Source: Pseudarthrobacter enclensis
Lineage (GTDB): Bacteria; Actinomycetota; Actinomycetes; Actinomycetales; Micrococcaceae
NCBI RefSeq assembly: GCF_030811655.1
Contig: NZ_JAUSRE010000024.1
Location: 1 to 64,000 of the forward strand
Direction of reading: 5' to 3'
Length of the DNA stretch: 64,000 nt
Part shown: piece by piece, positions 2,396-58,796 of the stretch
Layout: each line of letters starts with the position of its first letter
Position numbering within the stretch: position 1 is the stretch's first letter
The notes under the pieces: generated by a model
The model's database searches: none
What the model was told of the DNA's origin: nothing
Seen by the model: the letters and a program-made list of their open reading frames with translations, nothing else
Translations under genes and position numbers: made by a program

Positions 2396-4017
<1,622 letters not shown>

Positions 4018-11180: not shown

Positions 11181-12233
11181 ATGAGCGCATCCTCCATCGA
11201 TCTTGCAGTTATTCCCGGCGACGGCATCGGCCCCGAAGTTATTGCCGAGGCCCTCAAAGTCCTGGAAAAGGCCGTCGCCGCGGAGGGTGCCGAGCTCAAG
11301 CAAACGCACTACCAGCTCGGTGCCGAGCACTGGCTCGCCACGGGGGAGACCCTCCCGGACCACGTCCTGGAAGACCTGAAGACCCGGGATGCCATCCTCT
11401 TTGGTGCCGTGGGCGCCGCTCCCGGCGACACGCGCATCCCTTCGGGAATCATCGAGCGTGAGCTGCTCCTCAAGCTCCGCTTCAGCCTGGACCACTACGT
11501 CAACCTGCGGCCTTCCCGGCTCTACGGCACGGTGGGCAGCCCGCTGGCCAACCCGGGAACCATCGACTTCATCGTGGTGCGCGAGGGAACCGAGGGCCCG
11601 TATGTCGGCAACGGCGGTTCGCTGCGGGCGGGAACCCCGCACGAGGTAGCCACGGAAGTGTCCCTGAACACGGCCCACGGCGTGGAGCGCGTGGTCCGCG
11701 ATGCCTTCCGCCGCGCCAGCCTCCGGGAACGCAAGCACGTCACCCTGGTGCACAAGCACAATGTCCTGGTCTTCGCCGGGCACTTGTGGAAGCGCACGGT
11801 TGAAGCTGTCGCCCAGGAATTCCCCGGTGTCACCCACGACTACCTGCACGTGGACGCCGCCACCATCTTCATGGTCACCGATCCGTCCCGTTTCGACGTG
11901 ATCGTGACCGACAACCTGTTCGGCGACATCATCACCGACCTCGCCGCTGCCATCACGGGCGGCATCGGCCTGGCAGCGTCCGGCAACATCAACATGGACC
12001 GGACTGCACCCTCCATGTTCGAGCCGGTCCACGGCTCCGCGCCGGACATCGCCGGGCAGGGCAAGGCAGACCCCACCGCGGCCATCCTTTCCGCAGCCCT
12101 CCTGCTGGACCACCTGGGCTACGCCGACGCCGCCCGCCGGATCGAAGCGGCCGTTGTTGCGGACGTCGAAAAGCGCGACGGCACGGCACGCAGCACCAGC
12201 GCCGTCGGCGACGCCATCGCCGCCGGCCTCTAG
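11181..12233 (+). CDS. leuB: 3-isopropylmalate dehydrogenase
   Basis: It oxidatively decarboxylates 3-isopropylmalate to 2-oxoisocaproate with NAD+ in leucine synthesis. The 350 residues include the opening [19 protein letters not shown], the substrate-binding arginine region ([12 protein letters not shown]), the [25 protein letters not shown] segment (given here only as landmark [12 protein letters not shown] for the metal-binding aspartates) and [18 protein letters not shown]. There is no ribosome site before the ATG; a -10 box six bases upstream indicates a leaderless message. The gene is separate from leuCD, but an IclR-type leucine regulator occurs at 21,665 in this window. Confidence 0.96.
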
Positions 12234-38860: not shown

Positions 38861-39829
38861 GTGCCTGAACTGCCCGAGGTGGAGGTTGTCCGCCGTGGCC
38901 TGGTGAACTGGGTCCGCGGCAGGACCATCGATGCCGTGGAGGTGCTGGATCCACGCTCCATCCGCCGGCACGCGCTGGGAGCTGCCGACTTCATCGGAAA
39001 CCTTGAGGGTGCGGTGGTGTCCGACGTCGTTCGGCGCGGCAAATTCCTGTGGATGCCCCTGGCGGACAGCACCGCGGCCGCGGCCGAGGATCCCGGCACT
39101 GCCCCCGCGCCCAAGGCGGCACTGATGGCGCACCTGGGCATGAGCGGGCAGCTGCTGATGCAGGACCCGTCCGTCCCCGACGAGAAGCACCTCAAGGTCA
39201 GGTTCCGGCTCAGCCACCGCGAAGGCATGCCCGGGCAGTTGCGGTTCGTGGACCAGCGGATCTTCGGTGGCCTTTTTGTCACCAGCCTGGTCCCCACGGA
39301 CGACGGCGGCCCCGGTGGCCTCGCAGAATCACCCCTGCCGCTGATTGCGGAGGAAGCGGCGCATATTGCCCGCGACCCCCTGGACCCGGCCTTCTCTTTC
39401 GACCTGTTTTACCAGCGCCTGCGAAAGCGCAGGACCGGGCTCAAGCGTGCGCTGCTGGACCAGGGCCTGGTGTCCGGGATCGGCAACATCTACGCCGACG
39501 AAGCCCTGTGGCGCGCCCGGCTGCACTACGCCCGGCCCACTGACACCCTCCGCCGGAGCGAGGCCCGGCGCGTCCTCGACAGCGCGCGGGATGTCATGCT
39601 CGACGCGCTGGATGCAGGCGGCACCAGCTTCGATTCCCTCTACGTCAACGTCAACGGGGCCTCGGGCTACTTCGACAGGTCACTCAACGCGTACGGCCGT
39701 ACAGGCGAACCCTGCAAGCGCTGCGCCGCAGCCGGCATCCACTCGATCATCCGCAGGGAACAGTTCATGAACCGCTCATCGCACACCTGTCCGGTGTGCC
39801 AGCCGCGGCCCCGCAACGGCCGCTGGTAG
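38861..39829 (+). CDS. mutM: Formamidopyrimidine-DNA glycosylase
   Basis: A repair glycosylase/AP lyase removing 8-oxoguanine and formamidopyrimidines. The N-terminal catalytic [13 protein letters not shown] (after removal of the initiator Met from the GTG start), the helix-two-turn-helix region ([18 protein letters not shown]) and the C-terminal zinc finger (CKRC...CPVC) are all present. At 322 residues it is longer than most, with insertions around the acidic loop near residues 66-86. It is translated seven bases after rnc. Confidence 0.95.
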
Positions 39830-39877: not shown

Positions 39878-40849
39878 TCAACGGGGGCCGTAGTACTCCG
39901 CCAGCCGCTCCAGTCCTTCATCGAGTGATACGGCCGGCGTCCAGTCCAGGAGTTCCCTGGTGGCGCGCTGGTCGAACCAATGGGCTGTGGACAGCTGTTC
40001 GGCCAGGAACTTGGTCATGGGCGGCTCGTCCCGCTTTCCAAGCCTGAGCCACGCCCTTTCCACCACCGAACCCGCCACGCGCGCCAGCCCTCCGGGCAGG
40101 GACCAGGACGGCGCAGGCACGCCGCCGGCAGCGCAGATGCCGGCAATCAGTTCGCCTACGGGGCGGGGCTCGCCGTTGCTGACCACCAATGCCCGGCCAT
40201 GGATGTGCCCTATCCGCTCCAATGCCGCAACAATCGCCGCGGCTGCGTTGTCCACGTACGTCGTGTCGATCAGCGCAGCGCCGCCGTCCAGCAGGGGCAA
40301 CCGGTTCCGGGCCGCGCGGGCCAGTACACGTTCCACCAGTTGGGTGTCCCCGGGGCCCCACACCACGTGGGGCCGTACGGCGGCGACGCGGAACCCCGCT
40401 GAATCCGCGGCCAAGGCGAGCAATTCTGCCTGCGCCTTGGTGCGGGAGTAATCACCGTGGGCACGCACCGGATCAGCCGGCCCGGCACCCAGTCCTGCGA
40501 TGGCGGCGCCCGAATTGGCCACAGACGGGGAGGACACAAAAACGAAGTCGCCGACCCCGGCTTCACGCGCAGCCAGCAGCAGCCGCCGCGTTCCCTCGAC
40601 GTTCACCTCGTCAAACTCGTCGGCGCGGCCGGTGAAGGAGACTTTGGCTGCCAGGTGGACCACTGCTTCAGCACCCCTGACGGCAACGCCGACCGCCGCA
40701 TTGTCGGTGAGTGACCCGCACTGGTCCGTGGCGCCGTCGACCCCTGAAGGACGCCGCTGGAAGGTGGTCACGGCATGGCCCCTGTGCACCAGGAGTCCCG
40801 CAACCGCCCTGCCCAGCAGTCCGCTCGCTCCGGTGACGAGGACCCTCAT
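39878..40849 (-). CDS. oleD: OleD-type NAD(P)H-dependent 2-alkyl-3-oxoacid reductase
   Basis: A 323-residue short-chain/epimerase-family reductase that in the Ole pathway reduces the 2-alkyl-3-ketoacid to the 2-alkyl-3-hydroxyacid. It has the Rossmann opening MRVLVTGASGLLGRAVAGLL and the active-site tyrosine/lysine in GDYSRTKAQAELLAL (YxxxK). The ATG at 40849 overlaps the oleBC stop (ATGA), giving translational coupling. The upstream frame extension is a shadow of oleBC. Assignment rests mainly on the cluster. Confidence 0.88.
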   Translation of the reverse strand: MRVLVTGASGLLGRAVAGLLVHRGHAVTTFQRRPSGVDGATDQCGSLTDNAAVGVAVRGAEAVVHLAAKVSFTGRADEFDEVNVEGTRRLLLAAREAGVGDFVFVSSPSVANSGAAIAGLGAGPADPVRAHGDYSRTKAQAELLALAADSAGFRVAAVRPHVVWGPGDTQLVERVLARAARNRLPLLDGGAALIDTTYVDNAAAAIVAALERIGHIHGRALVVSNGEPRPVGELIAGICAAGGVPAPSWSLPGGLARVAGSVVERAWLRLGKRDEPPMTKFLAEQLSTAHWFDQRATRELLDWTPAVSLDEGLERLAEYYGPR

Positions 40850-43515
40850 GGCGTTCCCGGGCGGCCGCCGGCCAGCACGGATGCAGCCCAGCGGGCCACG
40901 CGGGTCCTGTCGATCTTGGCGTTGTGGCGGATATCGGTAGGCTGCGCGGGGACAACCAGGACCGCAGCCACGGATACGCCCGCAGTCCGAGCCGCTTCCC
41001 GCACCTGCCCGGCAAGTGCCGTTCCGGCAAGGCCTGCTTTGCGGGCCGGCGGGACCGTCTCGAGGACGGCCGCCACGGCCTGGGTCCCGGCCGGTCCGAC
41101 GCCCACGACGGCGGCCATCCGCACCGCATCCAAGCGCTCCAGCGCCTGTTCGGCGCCCACTGGGGTCACCGCACCGCCGGGGGCTGTCACGACATGGGCC
41201 AGCCGGCCTTCCACCCACAGCCGTCCCTGGGCGTCCAGGTGGCCCACGTCGCCAGTCCGGTGCCAGCCCGGCAGGTCTGCGCTTACCTGCTGGGTCAGCC
41301 AGAGGCGGTCGTAGGCTTCCTTGACATGCGGGGCACTGACCAGGATCTCGCCCGTTGTCCCGGCGGTGGTGACCGCCGTGTTTCCGGGAGCGGTGCCGTC
41401 AGGCGCCAGGGGGATGACTGCCACGCGGGCGCCATGGACGGGCCGCCCTACGCAGACGCCGTTGCCGGCGCCCGGCGTCGTTCCGTCAGCAGCGTCTGCC
41501 GCAGCCACCTGGATTTGTTCGAAGGTGATGTCCGTGACAGCGAGCGCCTCGGTCATCCCGTAGGGGGTGTGCAGCGACGCGGCCGGAAGGAGTGCCTGGA
41601 CCTCCGCCAGGAGCGGTTCCGGAACTGGAGCCCCGGCGGAGAGGAGCAGGCCAACCCTTCCGAGCGCTGCCCTGGCTTCCTCAGTGAGGCCGCCGCGGGT
41701 GGCAACAACGTTCCGCAGGGCAGCCGGCGACGCGAAGACAACCGTGGCGTCGATGGCCGCCACGGCGTCGGAGAGGGCGCGTGCCGTCAGGGTTCGCGGC
41801 GCGGTGACGTCCATGGCCGGCGTCACCGACACGGCTCCCAGGGCCGGCCCCAGTAAGGCGAACGGAGCGAACCCAGCCACCAGCCCCTGGCCGGGACGGA
41901 TTCCGAACGTTCCGGCCACGGTGTCGCGCATGGCGGCAAGCTGCCGGTGGGAGTACAGCACGCCCTTGGCCGGTCCGGTGGATCCGGAGGTAAAAAGCAC
42001 GGCGGCGGGCGAGTCCGGGGCAGGGATGGCTGCCGGGGGGTCCCCGGCAGCCACAGTGGGGCGGGCGGCTCCCGCCCTGGCCAGTGCGGCGAGGGAGGTT
42101 TCAACCCCCAGGAGCTTGCGGCGCCCCGGCGGGAGGTCCTGTACGCTGACGCGCCTGGCGGCCCACCCCAGGGCACGGGCCGCCGCCAGGGCCCTGTCGA
42201 TCCCGATCAACACGTCCGGGGTGGCGCCCTTCACCGCCCGGCTCAATCCCTTGACGCCCAGTCCGGCATCGGCAACCACCACCACGGCTCCCAGACGCAG
42301 GCACGCGTAAAGGGCCACCGTGAGGTCCACTCCGGGCGGAACCATCAGGCTCACCCGGCTGCCCGGGCCAACGCCCGCCTGCCGCAGGCCGGCGGCGAGA
42401 TGCCCAACGCTGTCTTCCAACTGCTTCCAGGTGAGTGAACGGGCCACACTGCCGTCCGCTGCCATTTCGACGACGGCGCGTCCGCCTGCTGAGGGCCCTG
42501 CCGCGAGTTCCGCCAGGGGCGCCCAGAGGGGAACGGAACCGGGGCGCCCAGCCGGAGTGGCAGCTTTGGCAACACTGTCCCCGTCCGCCTCAAAGCGCGC
42601 GGCAAGCCAGTCAAAAACCGCAGGTGTGATGTCCCGGTCCTCGGCCACCAGGTGTCCGGCGCCTTCGTAGCGGTGGACGTCCGCATGCGGGAGCCGGCCA
42701 AGGAGGTCCTTCAGATACCGGTCGGAGAAGATTGGGTCCCGGGGACCCCACAGCATCAGCGCCGGGACCTCCAGCCGGCGAACACCTTCAGCCACATTGT
42801 TGAGCGCGGCGAAGCTCGGGTGGGAGGCATCAACGGGGATGTCCGCCACGAAGTTTCCCACCCCGGCGCGGCGGGATGCGCCACGGTAGGGGGCCATGAA
42901 GGCGTTCCGCACCGACGTGGGCAGCGGCGGGCTGGCAAGCGAATGCGTCACCCGCAGGAAAGCGTCGGTGGTGGTGGTTCCCCATTGGTGCACGGCCGGA
43001 TGCAGGGCCAGGCGCAGTGCTGCCGGGATGGGTGAGCCGGCCGGCTGGTGGACGGCAGTGTTGGTCAGCACCACGCCCGCGAGCTGGTCCTGGTGCGCCA
43101 GTGCCCAGCCGAGGCTGATCACCCCGCCCCAGTCGTGGCCTACTGAGACCACAGGACCTTTCAGTGCCAGCGCGGCGGTGAGGTCGCCCAGGTCATTGAT
43201 CCTGTCGGCAAGGCGCCGGAAAGTTCCCGTGCGTTCCGAGAACCCCATGTCGAGCTGGTCCACGGCCACTACGCGCCACGGGTGCGCGGGGTCGCAGCCG
43301 GCCGCCAGCAGCCTCCGCCACAGGTAGGACCAGGTGGGGTTGCCGTGGACACACAGCAGAGTGCCCTTCGGAGCCAGGCCGCGGCCGGAAAGCTCTGCGC
43401 CGTTGTCCAGCAGGTGCCAGCGGCGTACCGTGCCCGGCGCATCAGCGCTTGACGTGGAGGGGACATCGATTTCGCGCGACCACTGGGCGTCGACGCCCGG
43501 CCACTCAACGGTCAC
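40846..43515 (-). CDS. oleBC: OleBC fusion: beta-lactone decarboxylase and beta-lactone synthetase
   Basis: An 889-residue two-domain protein. Residues 1 to about 310 are an alpha/beta hydrolase of the haloalkane-dehalogenase type: CVHGNPTWSYLWR (near 55), nucleophile Asp in VGHDWGG (near 128), His in GAGHLVAEDR (near 288). This is OleB, which releases CO2 from a beta-lactone to give a cis-olefin. From about 325 onward is an AMP-forming domain with FTSGSTGPAKG (near 508), PYGMTEA, RTGDVGHLDAQGRLWVEGR and a C-terminal NAKIDR lysine: OleC, which closes the lactone. The GTG start overlaps the oleA stop (GTGA). Such fusions are known in actinobacteria. Confidence 0.92.
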   Translation of the reverse strand: MTVEWPGVDAQWSREIDVPSTSSADAPGTVRRWHLLDNGAELSGRGLAPKGTLLCVHGNPTWSYLWRRLLAAGCDPAHPWRVVAVDQLDMGFSERTGTFRRLADRINDLGDLTAALALKGPVVSVGHDWGGVISLGWALAHQDQLAGVVLTNTAVHQPAGSPIPAALRLALHPAVHQWGTTTTDAFLRVTHSLASPPLPTSVRNAFMAPYRGASRRAGVGNFVADIPVDASHPSFAALNNVAEGVRRLEVPALMLWGPRDPIFSDRYLKDLLGRLPHADVHRYEGAGHLVAEDRDITPAVFDWLAARFEADGDSVAKAATPAGRPGSVPLWAPLAELAAGPSAGGRAVVEMAADGSVARSLTWKQLEDSVGHLAAGLRQAGVGPGSRVSLMVPPGVDLTVALYACLRLGAVVVVADAGLGVKGLSRAVKGATPDVLIGIDRALAAARALGWAARRVSVQDLPPGRRKLLGVETSLAALARAGAARPTVAAGDPPAAIPAPDSPAAVLFTSGSTGPAKGVLYSHRQLAAMRDTVAGTFGIRPGQGLVAGFAPFALLGPALGAVSVTPAMDVTAPRTLTARALSDAVAAIDATVVFASPAALRNVVATRGGLTEEARAALGRVGLLLSAGAPVPEPLLAEVQALLPAASLHTPYGMTEALAVTDITFEQIQVAAADAADGTTPGAGNGVCVGRPVHGARVAVIPLAPDGTAPGNTAVTTAGTTGEILVSAPHVKEAYDRLWLTQQVSADLPGWHRTGDVGHLDAQGRLWVEGRLAHVVTAPGGAVTPVGAEQALERLDAVRMAAVVGVGPAGTQAVAAVLETVPPARKAGLAGTALAGQVREAARTAGVSVAAVLVVPAQPTDIRHNAKIDRTRVARWAASVLAGGRPGTP

Positions 43516-44534
43516 CAAACGATTTCCAGCATGGCGGTGTTCAGGCCCGAACCCACGCCCATGCACAAAACGCGGTCCCCGGCACCCAGGGACTGCGACT
43601 CGGCGGCAAGCGTCATGGGAAGGGATGCGGGACCCACGTTGCCCCAGTGCGGGAAGGTGATGGGCACCTTGTCCGGATCCAGGTCGATCGCGTCGATGAT
43701 GGCCTGTGTGTAGGCGTTGCTCACCTGGTGCGTGACGTAACGGTCCATCGCCGCCCAGTCCCACTCGGGCTGTGCCTCGTGCCAGGCGTCGACCACGAGC
43801 TGGAGGCCGCCGTCGAGCAAACCCTTCGTGTCCGTGTGCATGCCGTCGATGCCGCCCACGCACAATTCGTGGTGCTCCGTGCCGGCCCGCATCACGCCGC
43901 CCAGCACCCGGTGCGCCCCCGGGTGCTGGTCCGCAGGTCCCAGGACGGCCGCTGCCGCTCCCGAGCCAAGCGTCAGCGTGGCAAATTCGCGGTTGAAGTC
44001 GTCACGGGTGGTTTCGGGCCGCTGAAGCCTGGCCAGCGTGGCCTCCTGGGTCAGCTGGGCGTCCTCGCCGTTGACCACAACGGCGTACCTGATCTGCCCG
44101 GAATCAATCATGTTCGCCGCCAGGGTCAGGGCGTTGACGAAACCGAGGCAGGCATTGGCAAGGTCGAAGTTCATGGCCGACGACGGCAGGCCAAGGCCAT
44201 GGTGGATCTTCACCGCCACGGACGGTTCCAGGTTGCGCCGGGTCACCGAGGTATTGATCAGCAGGCCGACCTCCGAGGCTTCAATGCCAGCCTCCGCCAG
44301 CGCCTTTGCGCCGGCCTCCACCGCAGCATCGTCGAAGGATGTTCCGGGAGCCCACCACCGGCGGTGCGTGATGCCCGCAACGCGCTCCAGCAGCCGTGGC
44401 GGGAACTTCAACCGCTTCAGGGTTGAGGCCAGCCGGCGGTCAAAGTCGGTGGAGCTCACAATCCTGGGAGCTTCAACGCTGCTGACCGAGAGCAGCGCGG
44501 TGTTGCTGTGGCGGAAGGTTGCATTACCTGCCAA
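43512..44534 (-). CDS. oleA: OleA: head-to-head fatty acyl-CoA condensing enzyme
   Basis: A 340-residue thiolase-fold (ketosynthase III-like) enzyme that joins two acyl-CoAs to a 2-alkyl-3-ketoacid, the first step of long-chain olefin synthesis. The catalytic cysteine is in NFDLANACLGFVNALTL (near residue 128), and the FPHWGNVGPASLPMTL segment carries the histidine of the active site. The TTG start is supported by AAGAGGGG seven bases upstream. It heads oleA-oleBC-oleD, all overlapping by four bases. Confidence 0.93.
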   Translation of the reverse strand: MAGNATFRHSNTALLSVSSVEAPRIVSSTDFDRRLASTLKRLKFPPRLLERVAGITHRRWWAPGTSFDDAAVEAGAKALAEAGIEASEVGLLINTSVTRRNLEPSVAVKIHHGLGLPSSAMNFDLANACLGFVNALTLAANMIDSGQIRYAVVVNGEDAQLTQEATLARLQRPETTRDDFNREFATLTLGSGAAAAVLGPADQHPGAHRVLGGVMRAGTEHHELCVGGIDGMHTDTKGLLDGGLQLVVDAWHEAQPEWDWAAMDRYVTHQVSNAYTQAIIDAIDLDPDKVPITFPHWGNVGPASLPMTLAAESQSLGAGDRVLCMGVGSGLNTAMLEIVW

Positions 44535-44574
44535 TTCAAGCCCCTCTTCGTTTCCGTCCCGCGTTCATGCGGTG

Positions 44575-44601
44575 ACTGTACCCACATAAACGCAGGCTCA
44601 A
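44575..44601 (-). promoter_or_regulatory. Possible ole operon promoter
   Basis: On the minus strand, TTGAGC (44596-44601) and TACAGT (44575-44580) are 15 bases apart, slightly short. They lie about 40-65 bases before the oleA start. Confidence 0.4.
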
Positions 44602-44762
44602 GAGCTTAACTATGCCTTTGCCACGCCGGAACCTGCATATTCGCGGTGGCGCGGGCGCCGGCTCCCGGGCGCTGCTGCGGGGAAATGTCCGTCCTGCGCA
44701 GTAGATTGTAGTGAGCCTTTTCCAGCAATCTGCCCTACCCGCTCCAGGAGACCAGAAAAGCC

Positions 44763-47700
44763 TTGCACCTCAAAAGCCTCACCGTCCGGGGGTTCAAGTC
44801 CTTTGCGTCTGCCACCACGTTCGACTTCGAACCCGGCGTCACCGCCGTCGTGGGTCCCAACGGGTCCGGCAAGTCCAACGTGGTGGATGCCCTGGCCTGG
44901 GTCATGGGCGAGCAGGGGGCGAAAACCCTCCGCGGCGGCAAGATGGAGGACGTCATTTTTGCCGGAACGTCCGGGCGGCCCCCACTGGGCCGTGCCCACG
45001 TTTCCCTGACCATAGACAACGCCGACGGCGCACTGCCCATCGAATACAGCGAAGTAACCATTTCCCGGACACTGTTCCGCACTGGCGGGTCCGAGTACGC
45101 CATCAATGGTGCCGGCTGCCGGCTGCTGGATATCCAGGAACTGCTCTCCGATTCCGGGCTCGGCCGGGAAATGCACGTCATCGTCGGCCAGGGGCAGCTG
45201 GACCGGGTACTCCACGCCACTCCGGAGGACCGCCGCGGATTCATCGAGGAAGCGGCAGGGATCCTCAAGCACCGGCGCCGCAAGGAAAGGACGGTCCGCA
45301 AGCTGGAGGCCATGCAGGCCAACCTCCAGCGGCTCACGGACCTCACCGGGGAGATCCGCCGCCAGCTCACGCCCCTGGGCAAGCAGGCGGAGGTGGCACG
45401 CCGGGCCCAGCGGGTGCAGTTCGACGTCCGGGATGCGCGTGCCCGCCTGCTGGCCGACGACCTCGTCCAGCTGCAGCTCGCCCTGGAGCAGGACGTGGCG
45501 GATGAGGCCGCGCTGAAAGCCCGGCGCACCGCTGTCGAGCAGGAACTTGAGGCCGGACGCAGGCAGCAGGCCGGGCTGGAACAACTGGCAGCGGAGGCCA
45601 CGCCCCGGTTGAATGCGGCCCGGGACACCTGGTACCGGCTGTCCACCGCACGTGAACGGCTGCGGTCGCTCGGCTCGCTTGCCACCGAGCGCAGCCGCCT
45701 GTTGGGCTCCGATGATGCCGCCCCGCCCTCCGGCCGCGACCCCGACCAGCTTGAGCGCCAGGCGGCGCGCGTGCGGCAGGAGGTGGCCGAACTCGAACAG
45801 GACATCGAAGCACGGCGAAGTGCCCTGGAGGCGGCCAGCACGGCTAAGGCGGAAGCGGAAGAGGCGGCCCGCGCCGAGGACCAGCGGCTCACGGCGCAGC
45901 TCCGCGCCGCGGCTGACCGGAGGGAGGGCCTGGCCCGCCTGGCCGGACAGGTTGCTGCCGCCCGGTCCCGTGTGGAGTCGGCACAGGCGGAACTGGGGCG
46001 GCTCCGCGACTCGCTTGCCGCGGGGACCGAGCGCCGCGCCCGGGCCCAGGCGGAGTTCACCGAGCTGGAAAACCAGGTGGCCGGGGTGGAGGAAGGAGAG
46101 GAGTCCCTGGACGCCGACTATGAGGCCGCCAGCGGGGTTTTGGACGCGGTGCTCCAGGAAATCGCGGATCTCAAGGCCGCTGTCAACGAGGGGGTGCGCA
46201 AGCGGGACGCCCTGGCGGCGCGGCTCGATGCCCTGAAGCTTGGCCTTGACCGCAAGGACGGCGCCCGGCACGTGCTGGAATCAGGGCTGGCGGGAGTGCA
46301 GGGGAGCCTTGCAGCGGCGATCACGGTCCGGAGCGGGTACGAAGCAGCTGTAGCCGCAGCCCTGGGCGAGGCGTCCGAGGCAGTCCTCGTCCAGGATGGG
46401 GCCACGGCGGCCGGAGTAATCCAGCGGCTCAAGGACGACGACGCCGGCAGGGCGTCGCTGCTCCTCGCCTCCGCCGCCGCCAAGCACGGGGAGGACAAGG
46501 ACAACGTGGCGTTGCCGGGCGGAGCGGTGTGGGCCGCCGACCTGGTGGACGGACCTGCCGGCCACCTTGCCCTGGTCCGGCACCTGCTCAGCGGAACCGC
46601 CGTCGTGACCGGCATCGACGCCGCGGCCGCGCTCGTCGCATCGCTGCCGGGCATCACGGCCGTCACCGGCGAGGGTGACGTCTTCACCGCCGTCTCGGCT
46701 GCCGGCGGCTCGGCCAAGGCCCCGTCACTCCTTGAGGTACAGGCAGCAGTGGACGACGCCGGCCGCGGCCTGTCCGCGGTCACCGCGGACCTGGAGCGGA
46801 ACAGGTTTGCCCTGGCCGCCGCCGAGGCCCGCCGCGCCGGAGCGCAGGAGGAGGCGGACGCGGCCCTGGACCGGCTGCACGAATCGGATGCCCGGTTGGC
46901 CGCCGTGGCAGAGCGCCTGGGCCACCTGAACTCGGTGCTGCGCAGCGCCGTGGGCGAAAGCGACCGGTTGGCGGCCTCCCTGGCCAGGGCCGGGGACAAT
47001 GTTGCTGCCGAAGAAGAAGCGCTCGCCGCCATCACCGCCCGGCTGGCCGCGGCCCAGGAAGCGCCCGTTGAAGAGGAGCCTTCCACCGAACAGCGGGACG
47101 CCCTGGCACAGGCCGCATCAGCCGCCCGCGCGGCGGAAGTGGAAGCGCGGCTGTCCCTGCGCAGCGCCGAGGAACAGCTGGTGGCCACCCGCAACAGGGT
47201 GTCCTCCCTGGAACGTGCTGCCGCCACGGAACGCCGTGCCCGGGAAGAAGCCGCACAGCGCGCCCGGCGGCGCCGCGTCCAGGCGAAACGCGCGGCCGCC
47301 GTGTCCGCAGGTGTGGACCTGGCGCTGCGCTACGTGGACGTCTCGGTGGACCTGGCCCGGCATGAACGCGACCTTGCCGAGGAGACCCGTGAACTGCGTG
47401 ACCGTGCCCTGCGGGACATCCGGGACGCCAATGAAACCCTGGCCCGGGAACTGGCAGACCTCACAGACAACGTTCACCGGGACGAGCTGGCGCGGGCGCA
47501 GCAGCGGGCCAGGATAGAAGCTGTGGAAACCCGGTCCGTGGACGAACTGGGCATCACCCCGGAGGCATTGGTGGCGGAATTCGGCCCCCACGTGCCGGTC
47601 CCTGTGCCCGCGGAGGAATCGGGCGACAAGTGGGCGGCCCTGCGCGCCCCTGTGGACGGCAACGGCGAAGAGATCAGGGCCGGCAAACCCTACGTCCGGC

Positions 47701-48350
47701 AGGAACAGGAGAAACGGCTGCGGAAGGCTGAGCGCGACCTCGCCAGCCTGGGCAAGGTGAACCCCCTGGCGCTGGAGGAATTCGCGGCGCTGGAGGAGCG
47801 GCACCAGTTCCTCAGCACCCAGCTTGAGGACCTGAAGGCCAGCCGCCGCGATCTGCTGGACATCATCAAGGAAGTGGACGACCGGGTCCAGCGCGTCTTC
47901 GCCGAAGCGTTCCAGGACACCCAGGCCCAGTTCGTGCGGGTCTTCGAGCGGCTCTTCCCGGGCGGCGAGGGCCGCCTGGTCCTGACGGATCCCGATGACA
48001 TGCTGACTACCGGGATCGAGGTGGAGGCACGTCCGGCCGGGAAGAAGATCAAACGGCTGTCCCTGCTCTCCGGCGGTGAGCGGTCCCTGACGGCCGTGGC
48101 GCTGCTGGTGGCCATCTTCAAGGCGCGGCCGTCGCCGTTCTACGTCATGGACGAGGTGGAGGCTGCCCTGGACGATACCAACCTCGGCCGCCTGATCACC
48201 ATCTTCGAGGAACTCCGGGAATCCAGCCAGCTCATCGTCATCACCCACCAGAAGCGGACCATGGAAGTGGCGGATGCGCTGTACGGCGTCACCATGCGCG
48301 GCGACGGCGTCTCAACCGTCATCAGCCAACGCCTCGGTGCCGAGGTATAG
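44763..48350 (+). CDS. smc: Chromosome segregation protein SMC
   Basis: An ATPase that organises and separates the chromosome with ScpA and ScpB. The 1,195-residue protein has the N-terminal HLKSLTVRGFKSFASATTF and Walker A GPNGSGKSNVVDAL (near 32), long coiled coils, a hinge (about 500-660, with SLLEVQ at its end), and the C-terminal signature LSGGERSLTAVALLVAIF (near 1,102) and Walker B FYVMDEVEAALDD. The TTG start begins at the conserved MHLKSL. ftsY follows on the same strand. Confidence 0.95.
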   Translation: MHLKSLTVRGFKSFASATTFDFEPGVTAVVGPNGSGKSNVVDALAWVMGEQGAKTLRGGKMEDVIFAGTSGRPPLGRAHVSLTIDNADGALPIEYSEVTISRTLFRTGGSEYAINGAGCRLLDIQELLSDSGLGREMHVIVGQGQLDRVLHATPEDRRGFIEEAAGILKHRRRKERTVRKLEAMQANLQRLTDLTGEIRRQLTPLGKQAEVARRAQRVQFDVRDARARLLADDLVQLQLALEQDVADEAALKARRTAVEQELEAGRRQQAGLEQLAAEATPRLNAARDTWYRLSTARERLRSLGSLATERSRLLGSDDAAPPSGRDPDQLERQAARVRQEVAELEQDIEARRSALEAASTAKAEAEEAARAEDQRLTAQLRAAADRREGLARLAGQVAAARSRVESAQAELGRLRDSLAAGTERRARAQAEFTELENQVAGVEEGEESLDADYEAASGVLDAVLQEIADLKAAVNEGVRKRDALAARLDALKLGLDRKDGARHVLESGLAGVQGSLAAAITVRSGYEAAVAAALGEASEAVLVQDGATAAGVIQRLKDDDAGRASLLLASAAAKHGEDKDNVALPGGAVWAADLVDGPAGHLALVRHLLSGTAVVTGIDAAAALVASLPGITAVTGEGDVFTAVSAAGGSAKAPSLLEVQAAVDDAGRGLSAVTADLERNRFALAAAEARRAGAQEEADAALDRLHESDARLAAVAERLGHLNSVLRSAVGESDRLAASLARAGDNVAAEEEALAAITARLAAAQEAPVEEEPSTEQRDALAQAASAARAAEVEARLSLRSAEEQLVATRNRVSSLERAAATERRAREEAAQRARRRRVQAKRAAAVSAGVDLALRYVDVSVDLARHERDLAEETRELRDRALRDIRDANETLARELADLTDNVHRDELARAQQRARIEAVETRSVDELGITPEALVAEFGPHVPVPVPAEESGDKWAALRAPVDGNGEEIRAGKPYVRQEQEKRLRKAERDLASLGKVNPLALEEFAALEERHQFLSTQLEDLKASRRDLLDIIKEVDDRVQRVFAEAFQDTQAQFVRVFERLFPGGEGRLVLTDPDDMLTTGIEVEARPAGKKIKRLSLLSGGERSLTAVALLVAIFKARPSPFYVMDEVEAALDDTNLGRLITIFEELRESSQLIVITHQKRTMEVADALYGVTMRGDGVSTVISQRLGAEV

Positions 48351-56088: not shown

Positions 56089-58796
<2,708 letters not shown>

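Follow-up and report, generated by a model that had tools for sequence, protein, structure and literature searches.

The OleABCD olefin operon of Pseudarthrobacter enclensis: a probably ancestral place beside smc, and variable presence and location within the genus

In Pseudarthrobacter enclensis, a compact set of genes for head-to-head olefin synthesis lies between mutM and smc, which raises the question of whether the set was inserted there or has occupied an old place from which relatives have lost or relocated it. The window, that is the whole stretch of 64,000 nucleotides analysed here, comes from an assembly of 4.74 Mb in 59 contigs. An earlier note on this DNA had claimed a complete pathway with OleB fused to OleC, four-base overlaps at every junction and an insertion between two genes that lie close together in many relatives. 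G and L numbers below are our handles for genomes and loci.

The operon, its enzymes and its predicted product

The genes oleA, oleB, oleC and oleD are clustered in a single run of overlapping genes, the order of which is kept by relatives. The features of the locus are as follows:

38861–39829, plus strand: mutM, convergent with oleD, 48 bp between them (direct reading)
40849–39878, minus strand: oleD, 323 aa, ATG start, SDR-type reductase; SDR residues GASGLLG, Ser106, Tyr134 and Lys138 conserved in 101 of 102 rows, the exception being a gap in G244
40846–40849, minus strand: ATGA, four-base overlap of the oleBC stop and the oleD ATG start
43515–40846, minus strand: oleBC fusion, 889 aa, GTG start (direct reading); OleB-like alpha/beta hydrolase half at about aa 34–305, OleC-like AMP-dependent ligase half at about aa 357–881
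43512–43515, minus strand: GTGA, four-base overlap of the oleA stop and the oleBC GTG start
44534–43512, minus strand: oleA, 340 aa, TTG start, thiolase-fold head-to-head condensing enzyme; active-site residues Cys129, Glu103, His269 and Asn299 invariant in 102 of 102 alignment rows
44535–44643, minus strand: oleA upstream block, ATATGCAGG...GGCATAGTTAAG...GGGTACAGTCACCGCATGAA...GAGGGG
44763–48350, plus strand: smc, TTG start, divergent from oleA, 228 bp between them

Overlaps at every junction is a correct description, since only two junctions exist, GTGA and ATGA, and both overlap by four bases. The oleA/oleBC overlap is conserved in 40 of 48 genus loci and the oleBC/oleD overlap in 47 of 48 (gene starts were taken from tblastn, and some misses may reflect alignment starts). 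Both overlaps occur in one of 12 more distant loci (L046), the others having gaps or different overlaps and one value (L050) being an artefact. A foreign origin by composition was considered and rejected, the G+C of ole (0.70–0.71) equalling that of neighbouring smc (0.715). Elsewhere in the window, a TPP riboswitch scores above the Rfam gathering score (58642–58749, minus strand).

Family, structure and residue checks speak for a complete OleABCD pathway with an OleB–OleC fusion, as had been proposed. OleA matches NF006720, a model named for 3-oxoacyl-ACP synthase III and not for OleA, with 462.6 bits against a cut-off of 285, and its residues 10–340 align to structure 3row_A with the active-site residues aligned (331 residues, E 5.8e-80). 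The structure search annotates 3row_A as 3-oxoacyl-[ACP] synthase III; we take it to be the Xanthomonas OleA structure, and we likewise assume for the Cys, His and Asn and their partner Glu the roles known from Xanthomonas OleA work. The Xanthomonas campestris OleABCD system is like the present one in its OleA, alignable over 331 residues with the active site, and in the logic of the pathway; it differs in having oleB and oleC as two genes instead of a fusion.

OleBC is a single open frame, the two halves of which a domain search assigns to the alpha/beta hydrolases and to the AMP-binding domains. The OleB half is a haloalkane-dehalogenase-like hydrolase with an Asp nucleophile; its motifs GHDWGG and HGNPTW and its residues Asn59, Asp128, Trp129, Asp260 and His288 do not vary in any of the 102 rows. 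The OleC half matches OlefBLtnSynXan with 288.8 bits (E 7e-86; equivalog cut-off 900) and has the ligase motifs, whose residues are retained in 98 to 100 of the 102 rows, all exceptions falling in broken rows (G218, G143, G248 and G298). The catalytic residues of the fused protein, whose loss the earlier note had named as one of two grounds for giving up its reading, are intact on closer alignment, with the OleB set invariant and OleC losses confined to broken rows. OleD matches NF042422, the OleD model for 2-alkyl-3-oxoalkanoate reductase, with 281.1 bits (E 1.3e-83; cut-off 580). OleC and OleD thus score below the NCBIfam equivalog cut-offs, possibly because the two models carry the names of Xanthomonas and Shewanella; these low scores count against the assignment. 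The roles of the OleB, OleC and OleD residues are presumably those known from haloalkane dehalogenases, adenylate-forming enzymes and SDRs, respectively. Between this oleA and those of six relatives, second codon positions differ far less (0.003–0.029) than third positions (0.28–0.37), which argues that the ole genes are under constraint by purifying selection. In five genomes OleBC is split into pieces in different frames (G298, G143, G248, G306 and G218, one of them with an internal TGA), which may reflect ongoing decay or sequencing errors.

According to PMC7158056, OleA condenses two acyl-CoAs to a product that OleD reduces; OleC then forms a beta-lactone, which decarboxylation by OleB converts to a cis alkene. 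Applied to this operon, OleA would join two acyl-CoAs head to head, without decarboxylation, to a 2-alkyl-3-keto acid, OleD would reduce this to the hydroxy acid, the OleC half would close the beta-lactone and the OleB half would remove CO2, giving a cis internal alkene that is probably branched and of C27–C29. Such olefin chemistry, predicted for this strain from its genes, would agree with published Micrococcales olefins, which are mostly C27–C29 and anteiso-branched, with traces only in Arthrobacter and Pseudarthrobacter strains (PMC7158056). The same source first reports olefins for Pseudarthrobacter and Paenarthrobacter and notes them as published for Arthrobacter strains. That the cluster yields beta-lactones or ketones instead of alkenes seems to us highly improbable. 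Clusters of oleACD without oleB are thought to give beta-lactones (PMC7064751), and lone oleA copies with intact frames occur in G243 and G252, whereas the OleB half is present here with nucleophile, Trp, Asn, acid and His invariant in all 102 rows.

The block upstream of oleA mostly accompanies the operon: both by eye and in blastn, loci that occupy different sites resemble one another in it. It is shorter at some loci, for example L119 and L123. The oleA TTG start is preceded by the ribosome-site-like run GAGGGG, and TACAGT in the block is, we assume, a -10-like motif. The block may hold a promoter, and one promoter between oleA and smc would probably drive the whole coupled operon; a sigma-70 consensus scan detected no promoter in the block, and a consensus scan found no terminator between mutM and oleD. 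Before smc, a -10-like TAGATT lies near 44701–44710 and can be made out by eye in the majority of intervals, whether ole+ or ole-. Also by eye, the smc upstream regions of these two kinds of interval are alike mainly at TAGATT and near the start, a pattern consistent with two exchanged haplotypes, and in G239, which is ole+ with other cargo next to smc, the smc upstream region resembles the ole- type.

Presence and place of the operon in genus and family

Within the genus, OleBC was found in 113 of 198 genomes (109 of the 187 of good quality) and OleA in exactly the same 113, always at most 4 kb from OleBC; no oleA match at E 1e-60 was found in the 85 genomes without OleBC. mutM matched in 197 of the 198 genomes and the first 300 aa of smc in 195. 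Location was scored in 98 of the 113 ole+ genomes, among the matches listed, and the remaining 15 were left out. Where both mutM and smc were located (78 genomes, among the matches listed), the operon lies between them in 46 and elsewhere in 32; in the other scored genomes it lies beside the single flank seen (6) or away from the single located flank (14). mutM and smc are on one contig in 31 of the 32 relocated cases, and about 1 kb apart from start to start in 20 of the 32. That they are neighbours in relatives lacking ole holds good as well: the spacing is about 1 kb from start to start in 32 of 52 genomes, these being the ole-less genus genomes with both positions known among the matches listed. 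The spacing also falls into classes, of about 3.5 and 9.3 kb where ole is absent and of 8.3 and 14 kb where it is present.

At six loci (L156, L160, L161, L162, L163 and L260), the mutM–smc interval contains other cargo in varied arrangements, with or without ole. By Pfam, the cargo of L156, L160, L161 and L162 is an MFS gene, alone or together with a large secreted DMFA2_C/DUF4082 protein. This secreted protein has 1.6–1.9 kaa and is of DMFA2_C/DUF4082/Big-domain type.

To count the contexts in which ole occurs, flanks were clustered for 85 loci from the window's genus and those near it, several of which represent one genome in two collections. This gave 28 upstream and 28 downstream groups, the mutM–smc place counted in, and 12 groups after merging on any shared neighbour. 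The higher figure is an overcount, because G252, though first scored as a new site, shares the site that we call e3; the lower figure is an undercount, because loci become linked through common transporter and regulator families. We claim as a bound that the cluster occupies between 12 and 28 contexts.

The family gives a different picture of the mutM–smc place from the one that the earlier note had drawn. In a family sample, OleBC is present in 90 of 120 genomes. The search for smc in other genera covered 80 of 85 ole+ genomes (G115–G119 were left out), and ole lies at most 6.5 kb from smc in 45 of the 80, including all tested ole+ members in 14 of 24 genera; the other 35 have it at 6.5–25 kb (5), far away (10) or on another contig (13), or have no smc match (7). 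The arrangement smc–oleA–oleBC–oleD–mutM, in this orientation, recurs in 12 of 13 named loci with 55–65% OleBC identity, among them A. agilis, A. echini, two Rothia nasimurium and one locus with a doubtful Vibrio title. At the thirteenth, Frondihabitans (L054), which is an outgroup row in the rooted tree, ole is not at mutM–smc. Among named loci nearer the window, 7 have both flanks, 1 has mutM alone and 14 with long flanks have neither. In the protein tree rooted on Rothia and Frondihabitans, the base consists mostly of mutM–smc rows (the broken rows G218 and G248 are doubtfully placed in it, and the DNA tree was used for tests).

Because ole adjacent to smc is common to many other genera, the mutM–smc place looks ancestral, and an insertion of the operon at this point is doubtful. 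The family-ancestral site was probably beside smc, and the ole-less and relocated states within the genus look derived. A recent arrival in the mutM–smc interval of the window's own lineage is the alternative, which we regard as rather unlikely. The interval is empty in the sister genome G124, among others, and the window's ole clade (21 rows, including the long misfit G218) is nested in a 66-row group otherwise made up of relocated clusters, so that a return to mutM–smc is possible. Distant genera and most basal rows, however, have the identical place and orientation, and the G+C match to smc leaves no foreign mark. As a side observation, the locus titled Vibrio cholerae strain 35D (L067) is an Arthrobacter-like mutM–ole–smc–ftsY region, and either its title is wrong or its assembly contaminated, probably.

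Tree conflict and probable movement between sites

The ole and host trees conflict, and ole has very likely been transferred between strains of the genus. The host marker consisted of two genes, mutM and the smc N-terminus, which themselves flank one ole site, so that any bias should favour agreement and not conflict; its tree holds 101 of the 198 genomes (77 ole+ and 24 without). Distances in ole and marker are loosely correlated (r 0.57 over 2926 pairs). The ole genes of the mutM–smc strains G205, G271 and G304 differ from those of the e3 strains by 0.12–0.13 at marker distances of 0.19–0.20, and the closest-marker pairs of different location class differ by 0.22–0.23 in ole at marker distances of 0.15–0.17. 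Forcing together the ole genes of 45 strains of one host clade was rejected (AU p 2e-108), as was forcing together the hosts of one ole clade on the marker tree (AU p 3.5e-6), in tests on quick trees with groups named after the trees had been seen. Location, scored as between mutM and smc or elsewhere, requires two changes on the ole tree and four on the marker tree; presence or absence requires 15 on the marker tree, which holds 101 genomes.

Of eleven locus pairs compared by blastn, two are plainly at the same site (G243/G009 and G241/G237), and nine have non-continuous flanks, some with additional flank DNA in common at a distance. Similarity in these nine pairs ends on the right within -8 to +23 bp of the oleD end. 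On the left it ends between -117 and -143 relative to the oleA start in five pairs (G243/G252, G273/G272, G273/G266, G255/G243 and G182/G168) and at -15, -76, -81 and -217 in the other four. Close relatives at different sites thus have little in common beyond promoter and operon. Whole-genome searches and complete loci place site e3 in G252, G243, G009, G283 and G301; it is empty in G255 and G282, both of which carry ole elsewhere. In the tested relatives, the blocks that flank ole in G273 and in G272 are found far away from ole, the nearest at about 45 kb. The empty e3 and the distant flank blocks together imply that about ten close relatives use at least three sites, namely e3 and those of G273 and G272; none of the three is occupied by the ole of G255, G266 or G282. 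As a partial control, flank blocks of 5–7 kb are contiguous or nearly so in relatives, and ole is not.

Apparent relocation might instead be flank replacement, with ole staying put and its neighbours turning over. G252 seemed to be a new site yet shares e3 with extra DNA on either side, and the mutM–smc interval is also filled by other modules, namely the MFS gene and the large secreted protein. We nevertheless consider this reading very improbable, as in genomes of one to three contigs (G243, G255, G266, G273 and G282) the orthologues of another strain's ole flanks are separated from the resident ole by distances of about 45 kb up to megabases, and e3 is empty in two genomes whose ole sits elsewhere. 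At e3 in G243, a 3.7 kb block has also entered, which obscures any direct repeats or target duplications there. Palindromes of the GACGACG..CGTCGTC type lie beside e3 (L110, about 11820–11855 and 3170–3225; CGAACGGACACTTG...CAAGTGTCCGTTCG) and recur in several stretches.

The same compact set at many places in some relatives and absent from others suggests movement and swapping between strains. What we hold to be very likely is that this is an OleABCD operon whose site beside smc was probably ancestral, and that within the genus it has been lost, transferred and re-established, all or none, together with its upstream region.

A stronger reading, which we put forward tentatively, is that the ole operon is an itinerant promoter-plus-operon cassette of about 4.8 kb with nearly constant ends, repeatedly copied between sites and strains without a mobility gene, leaving partial copies behind, and that the mutM–smc interval is an old docking place for ole and other modules. 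No transposase, integrase or recombinase was found within the operon or, by Pfam, among 20 flank genes (10 upstream and 10 downstream at 12 loci, chosen with a G+C-based gene finder as the nearest ones; four gave no Pfam hit). Stand-alone oleA copies whose frames are intact lie at L257 5515–6534 in G243 and at L258 4747–5766 and L259 4967–5986 in G252. The three copies have 89–97% DNA identity to the G243 operon copy, and two are followed by the first codons of oleBC; they may be what is left of duplicated cassettes, or else additional condensing enzymes, and we infer that they fit copy-then-loss better than clean cut-and-paste. Strictly constant cassette ends were also considered, an idea weakened by the variable left edges and by loci that, by eye, retain only about 45 bp of the oleA upstream block. 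The right end of the operon varies over about 45 bp, and the oleD stop is often supplied by the new flank.

A related possibility is a mobile unit with defined ends, in which promoter and operon are recognised and moved by machinery encoded elsewhere. Similarity stopping near the unit between loci with different flanks, on the right in all nine pairs and on the left in five, speaks for it, as does the lack of a mobility gene among the scanned flank genes. The scattered left edges of the other four pairs and the short upstream remnants count against it, however, as do oleD tails that differ between loci, and no terminal repeats or target duplications came to light; moreover, ends that fall at the limits of function could also be a product of selection. 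We judge such a unit unlikely, and prefer loss, transfer and re-establishment of the operon with its upstream region.

Known systems and significance

An oleA–oleBC–oleD operon was reportedly described in Micrococcus luteus by Beller in 2010, and Frias is said to have found both producers and non-producers in Arthrobacter already in 2009. PMC7158056 gives oleA, oleBC and oleD as the actinobacterial operon and reports ole from nearly every Micrococcaceae species that has a complete genome. The Micrococcus luteus operon, known here by its description in that source, is like the present one in gene order, OleBC fusion, Micrococcaceae host and predicted branched alkenes. As the gene set has the published architecture, the cluster is not new in kind; cluster and product class are already known, and the operon is in a family-typical place.

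For Granulosicoccus, PMC7064751 describes the first oleBC fusion outside Actinobacteria and suggests transfer. The Mobilicoccus and Granulosicoccus clusters of that source share with ours the OleBC fusion in an ole cluster; the transfer seen here differs in being within one genus and in involving a change of chromosomal site. Among 26 named distant loci, an OleBC frame spanning the entire match was found in 6, all Actinomycetota, and the OleBC-match frames of L100 and L079 run to about 826 and 628 codons, respectively. L063–L066, L068 and L073 (five Acidimicrobiaceae/Ilumatobacter-type MAG loci and one Actinomycetota MAG) also combine a fused oleBC with oleA and oleD. These lie outside Micrococcales, the sole Gram-positive order with ole clusters in a 2020 survey.

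To a pathway already solved the operon as such contributes little, but its scattered distribution does contribute something. Ole is almost always ubiquitous at genus rank and lateral transfer rare among the lineages compared, according to PMC7158056, whereas one GTDB-style genus has ole in 113 of 198 genomes, at many sites and with strong conflict between trees. Among the titles and abstracts of a literature search, which left most subscription papers outside, none concerned relocation of ole within Arthrobacter. If near-constant ends and movement without a mobility gene hold true, the operon would be a tractable case for how ordinary metabolic operons relocate, and natural pairs of strains with and without ole could, likewise if true, be used for testing the function of membrane alkenes.
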